From contig JAOASS010000016.1 in the NCBI GenBank assembly GCA_030158485.1, forward strand, positions 171,398 to 235,397: 64,000 nt of DNA, written 5' to 3'. The stretch is from Pseudobdellovibrionaceae bacterium (lineage in GTDB: Bacteria > Bdellovibrionota > Bdellovibrionia > Bdellovibrionales > Bdellovibrionaceae). Shown in pieces: positions 19,126-25,646 of this stretch; within the stretch, counting starts at the first letter, position 1; every line of letters starts with the position of its first letter. The notes under the pieces are model-generated. The model was not told the DNA's origin, made no database searches, and was given only the letters and a program-made list of their open reading frames with translations. Made by a program: the position numbers and the translations under genes.

Positions 19126-20025
19126 GTGGCTAAAGAAAAACCCATAATCGTTATAAAAAAAATCACAATCGCAGGTGGCGGACACCATGGTGGTTCTTGG
19201 AAGGTGGCACTTGCAGACTTCATGACAGCGATGATGGCGTTTTTTCTTGTGATGTGGCTTCTAGGTCAAAGTGATGAAACTAAAAAAGCTGTTTCGGATT
19301 ATTTTTCAACTCCTTCAATTATTGAGTATAATTTTTCAAACTATGGCGTGGAACTGACTTTAGAAAAACTATTTTTAGATCTATTGAATGAGCCGTTAAA
19401 AGCGTTTCAGAGTTTTTTGGAGCCTATTGATACAACACCAAACTTATTGGATACGGGATCGCAAAAAGTTGTTATTTCGAGTTTAGCAGACCAGTTAGGT
19501 GAGCTTGCTAAAAACGTACAAGTCAGCCAAGATGGTTTCGATTTTGATATTCCTGATAACCTACTTTTCATTCGTGGAACGTCAATACCGACTCCGGAAT
19601 ATATTTTTATTATGGATAAAATCAAAGGAATTACAACGGGACTTTCGGATGCAGAAATCAAAGTGGTATCTGCTATGTTTACACAAAGTGTAAGAAGTCA
19701 GTCAGAAATCGAAGCAAAAAAAATTGCTTCTCAAAGATTAGATCTGATTCGGAATAAAATTTCATCAAGCATTGAAAATACATCTTCGACAGTTGTTGGC
19801 AGCATCAATGTCAGAGACAAAAAAGGTGAAATAGAGCCCAGCAAGCTGATTGGGTTTATCAAGTTAAGTATTCGACAGAAAGCTATTAAAACCGATGGAT
19901 CGCAAGCTCGTAAGCTGGAAGCGATGTTTGGTGAAAAGCAGAATATGAATGTCTACGAAGACTACGTTCAACAAGTGACTTCAAAGAAAAAACAAATTCA
20001 GCCACAACAAAAACGAACTGAGTAA
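19126..20025 (+). CDS. motB: MotB-like stator protein with divergent C-terminal domain
   Basis: 299 residues with a GTG start. The N-terminus is canonical: GSWKVALADFMTAMMAFFLVMWLLG has the single helix with the proton-binding Asp (ALADF). The C-terminal half should be an OmpA-like peptidoglycan-binding domain. Its beginning is there (DNLLFIRGTSIPTPEYIFIMDKI), but the usual G-H-T-D stretch and the LSxxRA signature are not, being replaced by AMFTQSVRSQSE and IASQRLDLIR. The tail is basic and Gln-rich. It should pair with MotA, but how it grips the wall is unclear. Confidence 0.88.
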   Translation: MAKEKPIIVIKKITIAGGGHHGGSWKVALADFMTAMMAFFLVMWLLGQSDETKKAVSDYFSTPSIIEYNFSNYGVELTLEKLFLDLLNEPLKAFQSFLEPIDTTPNLLDTGSQKVVISSLADQLGELAKNVQVSQDGFDFDIPDNLLFIRGTSIPTPEYIFIMDKIKGITTGLSDAEIKVVSAMFTQSVRSQSEIEAKKIASQRLDLIRNKISSSIENTSSTVVGSINVRDKKGEIEPSKLIGFIKLSIRQKAIKTDGSQARKLEAMFGEKQNMNVYEDYVQQVTSKKKQIQPQQKRTE

Positions 20026-22472: not shown

Positions 22473-23306
22473 ATGGATCGAACTCGACTTTGGACAGAAT
22501 ACCCTCTTATTGGCTTTGATACTGAAACAAGTGGAGCTTATCCAGTTGGGAATGACATTGTCGAATTTGGTGCTGTTAAATGGTTTCAAGGAAAAGAAGT
22601 AGATCGTCTTCAAATTTTAATCAAACCAAGAGAGCCAATGGGGGATTTTGTCATCGGAATTCATGGAATTACGAACGAAATGGTTGAAAATGCACCCCCT
22701 ATAAAAGATGTAATCGGTAAAATTCATGATTTTTTTAAAAATGGCATAGGAATAGCTCATCACGCTCCGTTCGATATGGGATTTATTTCATTTGAATTTG
22801 AAAGACATGGGTTTCCGCTGCCTTCAACGCCAGTTTTTTGTACAAGTCTTTTATCAAGAAAGTTGATTCACGGAACAGAGAATCACAAACTTCAAACTCT
22901 CGTGAAACATCTTGGAATTGATGGTGGGTCAGCCCATCGAGCAACGGATGATGCAAACGCATGTTTGCAATTGGGGCTTAAGTGTTTAGGCTTGTTAAAC
23001 AATTATTCCATTCAAAAAGTTCAAGAGCTTCAAGGCAAAAAAATTGAATGGGCTTACTATAGTTTGGCATTTCAGCAATCGATGGCAGCGCAAGTTATTC
23101 GAGAAGCTTTACTGAAAAAAAAGAATGTGGAAATTATTTACGAAAAAGGGTCTAAGTCGGGGAAGTTAAGACCTATTCAACCACTTGGTATCGTTCGAAA
23201 CCCAGACGGTGATTACATAGCTGCTATTTGTCTATTGGATCATCAGAAGAAAAGGTTTTATTTACAACACTTGAAGGAAGCTGCGATTCTTGAGGCGACG
23301 ATTTAA
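22473..23306 (+). CDS. DEDDh 3'-5' exonuclease with C-terminal WYL-like domain
   Basis: 277 residues. Residues 10-180 are a DnaQ-type exonuclease: GFDTETSG (D16, E18), HAPFDMGF, and HRATDDANA (His plus Asp of the DEDDh set), with IHGITNEMV typical of the epsilon family. Residues 205-277 read ALLKKKNVEIIYEK, RPIQPLGIVRNPDGDYIAA, then KKRFYLQHLKEAAIL, which is the strand pattern of a WYL ligand-binding domain. The family of the front part is sure, the WYL call is moderate. It may trim DNA in repair or defence under control of a bound ligand. The last 83 bases overlap lspA on the other strand. Confidence 0.85.
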   Translation: MDRTRLWTEYPLIGFDTETSGAYPVGNDIVEFGAVKWFQGKEVDRLQILIKPREPMGDFVIGIHGITNEMVENAPPIKDVIGKIHDFFKNGIGIAHHAPFDMGFISFEFERHGFPLPSTPVFCTSLLSRKLIHGTENHKLQTLVKHLGIDGGSAHRATDDANACLQLGLKCLGLLNNYSIQKVQELQGKKIEWAYYSLAFQQSMAAQVIREALLKKKNVEIIYEKGSKSGKLRPIQPLGIVRNPDGDYIAAICLLDHQKKRFYLQHLKEAAILEATI

Positions 23307-24192
23307 GGCTATGGTAAGTTTCTGAAATTTGAACTGCAAGTGGCTCGAGATGTTGAAACTCATCGTTTTTTCGAACTTTAAAAATCACTTTTTTACCGGT
23401 CATCGTTTCTCTTAGAAATTTTTCAAAAGCATAAATCGGTCCGGCTATACGATGAGAAAAAACTCCTCCTAAAATATAGACAAGTAATGAAAAGCCAAAC
23501 CCTAAACAAAGTATGAGTAAAACAAAAGGTCGTACAAATTTTTGTACGATTTGTTGATTTGCAGCAGTGAGCTCTTGGAGAGTAACACGCAAATAAGTGT
23601 AACAGAATACAACAAATATTCCTGTTAAAATGAGGCTAATTGCAGCTAAGAAAAAGCTAAACCTTTTTTGAAATGGAGCGTTAACCCAAAACGACTTGCG
23701 AGAATTTTTTTCCGGCCAAAGAGTGTGTCCTTCTCGAATGAAGAAATAAAGAATAAGTGAGTAGCCGATCCATTGAACAATATCTGCAACGTTAAAAATA
23801 GGGGAAACGTAAGTTCCATAGTTGATTTTAATAAAGTCGATAACCGCGCCGTAGCGAACTCTGTCTAGAACGTTTCCTAGAATACCACCAAGCAAAATTG
23901 AAAGTCCTATTCGAAGTTTCATATGATGACCAGGCGTCAGGTATTGAAATAGAAAAAAAACGCCTACAATCAGAGCGCCAAATGTGGATAATGAAACAAT
24001 TCTAAGTGTTGGAGGCAGATCTGAGAACAGTCCTAGCATCGCACCATGATTAAAGATCATATAAAAAGGACCAAAGGGCCCTTCTCTATTATTTGTAAAA
24101 CTCAGCGCTAGACTTTTTGTAAACCAATCCAACAGAATAAGAAGTGGAATGGGAATGTAGACAATAATCCAATCTTTACGAGTCATGTTCAT
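23224..24192 (-). CDS. lspA: Signal peptidase II (LspA) fused to a two-helix HAMP module
   Basis: 322 residues, about twice the usual LspA length (about 160). Residues 1-160 are LspA: LLDWFTKS, IFNHGAMLGLF, GGILGNVLDRVRYGAVIDF (catalytic D119) and FNVADIVQWIG (catalytic D137), with four membrane segments. Residues 177-242 add two more membrane helices. Residues 243-295 have SHRIAGPIYAFEKFLR and RKNDEFQHLEPLA, as in HAMP signal-relay domains. It cleaves lipoprotein signal peptides in the inner membrane. The role of the HAMP part is unknown. The frame is continuous, and the 3' end overlaps the exonuclease gene by 83 bases. Confidence 0.9.
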   Translation of the reverse strand: MNMTRKDWIIVYIPIPLLILLDWFTKSLALSFTNNREGPFGPFYMIFNHGAMLGLFSDLPPTLRIVSLSTFGALIVGVFFLFQYLTPGHHMKLRIGLSILLGGILGNVLDRVRYGAVIDFIKINYGTYVSPIFNVADIVQWIGYSLILYFFIREGHTLWPEKNSRKSFWVNAPFQKRFSFFLAAISLILTGIFVVFCYTYLRVTLQELTAANQQIVQKFVRPFVLLILCLGFGFSLLVYILGGVFSHRIAGPIYAFEKFLRETMTGKKVIFKVRKNDEFQHLEPLAVQISETYHSLKSSPQESQLPSSVVNKTFSSDDPIDK

Positions 24193-24227
24193 TGGATTAC
24201 CGTAATTCTTTTTCAGGAGGATGGCTA

Positions 24228-25646
24228 GTGAGAGCGATCAAACATCTAGTAGGGTTTTTGTGCGTAATTTTATTTGCGAAGTCTGCTCATAGTGAATCAT
24301 TTTCTGACTGGACTTTAAGCTTAATTAAAAAAAATAAGCTGAATCCAGACCACTTTTCTTTTCATTGGGCCAAGCCAGATGCTTCGGTTATTCTTCAGCA
24401 TCGATCTGATGTTTTGATGTTACCAGCTTCTATTAGTAAAATTGCCACAGCTTCAGCGGTACTTGAATATTTGCCACCGGGAACTCAATTTAAAACTCAA
24501 CTTAAATCATCTGCTAGAATTGTCGGTGAGCAATTAAAAGGATCTCTTTATTTAGTAGGCGGTGGAGACCCCTCTTTTGTTTCAGAAAATATGTGGTTTT
24601 TAGTTAATTCATTTAAAAGAAACAATATAAAAGAAATTGTGGGTGATATTTGTGTCGACGATTCACTTTTTGACTCTATTCGTTTTGATGGTTCGCGGGA
24701 AAGTGTCAGAGTCGATCGCGCTTATGATGCTCCTGTGGGAGCCATGTCATTTAATTGGAATTCGATGAATGTTTTTGTAAGGCCAACTAAGCCTGTGACT
24801 TCTGCTTATGTCATATTAGATCCTGAAAACGAATATTTAAAACTTGAAAACTTAGTGAAGACCAAAAAATTCGGTCCTGCCGAAATTCAAGTTGATCGTG
24901 ATTGGAGTGAAAAAAACAATATTGAGACCGTTAAAGTAAGAGGAGCAATAGGCGAAAATCAGCAAGAAGCTGTTATCTTTGCCAATATTACAAAGCCCGA
25001 CTTGTGGTCTGGTGCAAACTTAAAATCTTTTTTAAGTCAAAGAGGAATTCAAGTTTTAGGAAATGTTAAAAATTGCGTTTCTAATTCGTCTATGGAAATT
25101 TTGGCTGAATATCAAAGTAAACCAATTGAAATGATATTATCTGATATGAATAAGTTTTCGAATAACTTTGTCGCTGAAATGTTAACTAAAAATATGGCGG
25201 CATTGTCGCAGAAGCCGGCGACTTTAAAAGTAGGTGTTGAAAAAATTCAGCAACACCTAAAAAAATTGGGTTTCGATTTACAAAAAGATTTCATCATTTT
25301 GAATCCTTCAGGTCTAACTCGAGATAACAAGATGACGGCGTATGCTATGTGGAAACTTTTATTAATCAGAGAAAAAGATTTTTCATCAATGCCAGAATTT
25401 ATAATGTCACTTCCGATTTCAGGAGTTGACGGCACATTGAAAAAAAGAATGAAAGACCCTTTAACTTATCGTCAGGTGCGAGCTAAAACCGGGATGCTGA
25501 ATGGAGTGGTGTCTCTTGCGGGTTATGCGACAGACATGAGTGGAATGCCGATCCCATTTGCTTTTATGTACAACGGTCCGGGCGATAGTGCCCGGGCCCG
25601 ATCAATAATTGATCAAATTTTTGAAAAATATTATTCGCAAAGATAA
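24228..25646 (+). CDS. dacB: DacB-type D-alanyl-D-alanine carboxypeptidase/endopeptidase (PBP4)
   Basis: 472 residues from the GTG at 24228, chosen because AGGAGG lies seven bases upstream and a signal peptide then starts directly. S13 family motifs are in order: PASISKIAT (SxxK), KFSNNFVAEML (SxN) and RAKTGMLNG (KTG). A periplasmic enzyme that trims peptide stems and can cut crosslinks of murein. In Bdellovibrio such enzymes also act on prey walls, but this copy has no feature that shows such a role. Its end overlaps tetR by 16 bases. Confidence 0.93.
   Translation: MRAIKHLVGFLCVILFAKSAHSESFSDWTLSLIKKNKLNPDHFSFHWAKPDASVILQHRSDVLMLPASISKIATASAVLEYLPPGTQFKTQLKSSARIVGEQLKGSLYLVGGGDPSFVSENMWFLVNSFKRNNIKEIVGDICVDDSLFDSIRFDGSRESVRVDRAYDAPVGAMSFNWNSMNVFVRPTKPVTSAYVILDPENEYLKLENLVKTKKFGPAEIQVDRDWSEKNNIETVKVRGAIGENQQEAVIFANITKPDLWSGANLKSFLSQRGIQVLGNVKNCVSNSSMEILAEYQSKPIEMILSDMNKFSNNFVAEMLTKNMAALSQKPATLKVGVEKIQQHLKKLGFDLQKDFIILNPSGLTRDNKMTAYAMWKLLLIREKDFSSMPEFIMSLPISGVDGTLKKRMKDPLTYRQVRAKTGMLNGVVSLAGYATDMSGMPIPFAFMYNGPGDSARARSIIDQIFEKYYSQR

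Follow-up and report, generated by a model that had tools for sequence, protein, structure and literature searches.

The window, a stretch of 64,000 nucleotides from a Pseudobdellovibrionaceae genome, encodes a protein in which a signal peptidase II (LspA) domain is continued in frame by a two-helix HAMP-like membrane module. The fused gene coexists with a separate canonical LspA, and it co-occurs with, and outside its own class is linked to, genes for lipoproteins with a non-standard (odd) lipobox. We propose with moderate confidence that its product is an active signal peptidase II, the second in the cell, dedicated to an aromatic-polar-polar-Cys class of lipobox, with the HAMP-like module acting as a docking or dimerisation piece. 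The gene and its parts are as follows.

23224..24192, minus strand: LspA–HAMP-like fusion gene, 322 aa, ATG start, with orthologues in relatives.
23719..24192, minus strand: LspA (signal peptidase II) domain, residues 1-158, four membrane helices (PF01252, PDB and Foldseek).
23836..23838, minus strand: codon of catalytic Asp119, 100% conserved in class orthologues and canonical LspA.
23782..23784, minus strand: codon of catalytic Asp137, likewise 100% conserved in class orthologues and canonical LspA.
23770..23775, minus strand: Gln140-Trp141, one turn past Asp137, 100% conserved in class fusions and Ile/Val in class canonical LspA.
23680..23718, minus strand: linker, residues 159-171, where the module common to stand-alone proteins starts (alignment).
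23569..23679, minus strand: predicted helix 172-208, the fifth membrane helix (model).
23401..23556, minus strand: predicted helix 213-264, the sixth membrane helix, continuing into a HAMP-like AS1, SHRIAGPIYAFEKFLR (model and alignment).
23299..23400, minus strand: HAMP-like connector and AS2, residues 265-298 (VRKNDEFQHLE), with R274 and D277 shared with stand-alone modules.

The N-terminal part has the sequence and the fold of LspA. PF01252 (Peptidase_A8) matched residues 17-151 (E = 5.3e-23; 82 bits against a cut-off of 25), covering positions 4-140 of the 142 in the profile, and the fusion protein matched a solved LspA by sequence (6ryo, E = 5.8e-9). An AlphaFold2 model of the full chain, made with 79 aligned relatives as input, reached a pLDDT of 90 and placed a HAMP-type helix layout after the LspA fold; a Foldseek search with this model returned 6ryp (E = 1.6e-5) as well as 5dir and 6ryo. 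Residues D22, K26, N48, G50, N107, D110, R111, D119, N134 and D137 were each 100% conserved across 50 class orthologues, and the Asp pair was kept in 97% of 40 fused members from outside the class (outer members). The original prediction, an LspA signature with catalytic D119 and D137 in the first ~160 residues followed in frame by two further helices and a HAMP-like region, is thus confirmed by the PF01252 match and full conservation for the enzyme, and by the model and the orthologues for the fusion. The protein scored 62.2 bits against the housekeeping-lspA equivalog TIGR00077, below the cut-off of 73.95, and so is not filed as a housekeeping LspA.

Full-length matches at 38-75% identity were present in nearly all of 60 relatives, and so was a separate LspA of ~170 aa. 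Among 291 genomes of the phylum, the fusion was near-universal in the class and occurred in about one-third of the others, at times in two copies. Since it is full length in most of the 60 relatives and found phylum-wide, the architecture is not a product of chance, assembly artefact or sequencing error; the same full-length fusions rule out a lost stop codon. A profile search of 22 genomes told full fusions apart from stand-alone LspA and stand-alone modules. Separate genes for the two parts, which had been expected to count against a fusion, do exist in relatives, but as paralogues coexisting with the fused gene. In the window's own genome, contig 9 carries the second, canonical LspA, with an lgt gene ~1.5 kb away. 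A protein scan of genome contigs found only one distant canonical LspA. Two lgt-type genes were present in all ten genomes tested, with or without fused LspA (in the own genome on contigs 5 and 9, G000:C5 and G000:C9), so a specialised Lgt as co-factor of the fused LspA was an uninformative candidate.

Two neighbours of the fused gene recur in the class:

24192..25646, plus strand: divergent D-Ala-D-Ala carboxypeptidase (Peptidase_S13), kept at 63 of the fused-gene loci fetched.
22473..23306, plus strand: convergent DEDD exonuclease with a WYL-like C-terminus, overlapping the fusion gene tail-to-tail by 83 bases; kept at 44 loci.

Elsewhere in the window, positions 19126-20025 encode a MotB-plug protein beside MotA, in which Pfam shows no OmpA-like peptidoglycan-binding domain.

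The usual view is of a single, near-universal lipobox that one enzyme reads, and prediction tools are built on it. The standard form is [LV][ASTVI][GAS]C (PMC8689077). Outside the class, lipoproteins adjoining fused genes instead carried FNHC, FTQC, YTHC, YNQC, YQNC or FQNC, of the general form [FY][QNT][NHQ]C. In one family (f18), the fused gene lies in a conserved cluster, c6-c7-c8-c9-LspA-HAMP-porin. This cluster encodes the lipoproteins c7 and c9 and the Tat-type protein c8, and several of its members have CxxCH; the c6-c9 proteins matched no Pfam family. The cluster at L100, L101, L102, L113 and L120 comprises CxxCH proteins, a Tat-type RRDFL protein, two odd-box lipoproteins, LspA-HAMP, a barrel-like protein, a TPR-like protein and YceI. 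Odd boxes were also found in unrelated lipoproteins beside the fused gene (L105/L118, L109, L122, L130 and L131), with LQNC at L095.

Homologous c6-c9 operons with and without the fused gene were compared. The c7 and c9 boxes were [FY][NT][HQN]C in 25/25 readable cases with fused LspA and of the odd type in 0/21 readable cases without it nearby, although these 46 boxes reflect few independent events, since lipobox type switches only ~2-3 times on a tree of c8. The first set consists of c6-c9 operons linked to fused LspA, or with the fused gene on another contig (G142); the second, in which 21/21 boxes were of conventional type, consists of eight genomes in which the fused gene was not detected and of unlinked paralogous operon copies (G205, G142). 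In relatives the same lipoproteins have a conventional-type box, which supports the view that those with the odd box are lipoproteins as well. Within G142, a second operon copy carries a canonical-type box, and operon copies unlinked to the fused gene in G205, G142 and G053 keep such boxes, indicating that the presence of the fused gene in a genome is not enough. One draft genome, G222 (91% complete), was an exception, having the odd box with fused LspA not found; in G269 part of the fused gene is left at the edge of a contig. Across the phylum, [FY][NT][HQ]C was just slightly above control, from which we reason that substrates outside the class would be few and mostly linked. A looser [FY][NQT][NHQ]C pattern applied to the DNA of 75 genomes was too noisy to separate genomes and was dropped.

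Spacing before the Cys was considered as a further mark of the odd box. In the outer families the uncharged stretch was near-fixed in odd-box signals, mostly 16-17 residues with a median of 17, compared with a canonical median of 13 (p ~4e-12). However, canonical lipoproteins of the class also reach a median of 16, so the spacing is not unique to the odd box and does not by itself define the class of signals.

Candidate substrates are scattered in class genomes, and the genes next to the fused gene carry no odd box there. A search of the window's own genome with a loose pattern yielded 27 sites. Ten of them lie in signal peptides at the N-terminus of ORFs of 66-459 aa, and in 10/10 of these FQN stood directly before the Cys. 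This set includes a CxxCH lipoprotein encoded immediately downstream of a c8 homologue (L134, L251), a vWA/MIDAS-type protein (L150) and a paralogue pair (L144, L146). In 99 class genomes, 613 [FY]QNC sites followed hydrophobic codons, compared with 59 for a reversed-pattern control (Wilcoxon p ~1e-17), the signal-peptide check of every site being confined to the own genome; the other 192 phylum genomes had a mean of 0.6 [FY]QNC sites. Five reduced class genomes with a missing or highly diverged fusion had 0-1 FQNC sites, a comparison confounded by their small genome size. Two apparent exceptions, G262 and G057, have FQNC sites and no fused gene; these are probably assembly gaps, because G262 lacks the adjacent carboxypeptidase gene and in G057 that gene is broken at apparent contig ends. 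G291 is a further class exception without such an account.

The link between the fused gene and the odd box is a correlation, and a different reading of it is that the fusion is a second general LspA with the same substrates as the canonical enzyme, the odd box being a trait of the lineage whose phylogenetic distribution happens to coincide with that of the fusion. The small number of lipobox switches in the operon tree fits this reading, as does the class-wide FQNC excess, which is confounded with ancestry. Against it, the fused gene is linked to several unrelated odd-box lipoproteins outside the class, and homologous operons without the fused gene, including the second copy in G142, have canonical-type boxes. 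We regard a general role as improbable, while giving it more weight than the other alternatives considered below.

Comparison of the two enzymes within the class counts in favour of the preferred reading of a dedicated peptidase. All catalytic residues are common to class fused and canonical LspA in the alignment, and Q140-W141 are candidate specificity residues. Other positions that separate the groups (fused/canonical) are V108/Y, I104/A, Q83/L, H46/V and G72/P. The fusion therefore resembles known signal peptidase II (PF01252, peptidase family A8) in its fold, four helices, catalytic Asp pair and substrate-site residues, and differs in its added two-helix module, its distinct residues next to the active site and its link to a different lipobox. 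Exchanging residues between the two paralogues of one cell would make LspA substrate specificity testable.

In the mechanism we propose, diacylglyceryl transfer to the Cys would precede cleavage by the fused LspA, which would cut before the Cys of signal peptides with [FY][QNT][NHQ]C, mostly FQNC in the class. The separate canonical LspA would take the ordinary [LV][ASTVI][GAS]C box. The HAMP-like module would most likely be a membrane docking or dimerisation piece that positions the enzyme or a partner. We favour a change of substrate over control by a signal because the conserved association is with lipoproteins that have a non-standard lipobox. More tentatively, a second lipoprotein pathway may run alongside the housekeeping one. 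It would recognise an address of its own, made up of a long hydrophobic stretch followed by [FY][QNT][NHQ] before the Cys, and would use its own signal peptidase II, which is joined to a membrane docking module; it might also lead to a separate destination, for example that of the surface lipoproteins of predatory bacteria. We hold this as a conjecture somewhat short of even odds.

If the proposal is correct, a whole class of lipoproteins has been missed or mis-annotated in a predator-rich group, probably Bdellovibrio and its relatives, and the affected proteins of the own genome would include the vWA/MIDAS-type protein and the CxxCH protein. In the collection of open-access papers searched, neither an LspA-HAMP fusion nor an FQNC lipobox was mentioned. 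Bdellovibrio proteins described there as having a 'lipobox' include a MIDAS-family invasion adhesin (PMC11003981). Myxococcus xanthus LspA3 and LspA4 are paralogues in the myxovirescin antibiotic cluster (PMC8689077); like the fused gene, they are extra lspA copies beside housekeeping ones, but unlike it they belong to an antibiotic gene cluster, and the same paper mentions no HAMP part.

The C-terminal module is HAMP-like in its layout and, we consider, HAMP by relationship. The model has the membrane helix-AS1-connector-AS2 topology, with helices at 213-264 and 282-298 and an extended connector between them. The domain search gave a divided answer: the PF01252 match and the conserved fusion were as the original prediction expected, but Pfam HAMP (PF00672) did not match the window's fusion protein. 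PF00672 did match 3/18 members of the aligned stand-alone module family (best E = 1.7e-6), and a profile search with the module found a solved histidine kinase in which the GP of AS1 was aligned (E = 0.002); on these two grounds the label 'HAMP-like' is a fair one. Foldseek with the module alone returned nothing significant. The module forms a protein family in its own right: stand-alone relatives with both helices, 140-215 aa long, occur in many related genomes. Five residues were invariant in fused and stand-alone modules (Q175, G251, P252, R274 and D277 in the fused numbering), and P252 and R274 were nearly invariant in the widest set of modules. The module is like HAMP in its membrane helix leading into AS1 with GP, its connector and its AS2 with D-x-F-x-x-L, and unlike it in having no preceding sensor, no following signalling domain and no Pfam HAMP match.

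In a few genomes the module is itself followed by further domains. A single ORF of ~655 aa at L092:4463-6421, L093:264-2237 and L094:3630-5594 runs from LspA and the HAMP-like module through a signal-sequence-like stretch into a CxxCH outer-membrane-barrel-like protein (SCLTCHYNPQGNGPLNDYGR), and at L095:3921-5378 LspA-HAMP is followed by a peroxiredoxin-like AhpC/TSA domain (PF00578, E = 9e-10). Such additions suggest a role for the module in linking the enzyme to partners. They would also suit a protein that is primarily a binding or sorting factor and not a peptidase, reading the odd box and steering lipoproteins, for example to the cell surface, with the module as interaction platform. We think this unlikely, given the full conservation in the class of the catalytic Asp pair and of the substrate residues around it, and the 97% conservation of the pair in the 40 outer members.

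HAMP normally passes signals on to what follows it. The loop between helices 172-208 and 213-264 is only a few residues long in the model, leaving no extracytoplasmic sensor in the fusion protein, and AS2 is followed by nothing but a short variable tail. The earlier proposal that LspA activity, and hence lipoprotein maturation, is switched by a signal passed on through the HAMP region can draw on the HAMP-type helices, the invariant GP and D positions and the Pfam HAMP match in relatives, but it is not supported and is the least probable of the readings, because there is neither sensor nor output domain, and LspA lies upstream of HAMP, against the usual direction of HAMP signalling. As a separate observation, a stand-alone HAMP-like two-helix gene lies ~20 kb from canonical lspA in many genomes (e.g. 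G066, G106, G113, G119, G179 and G212).
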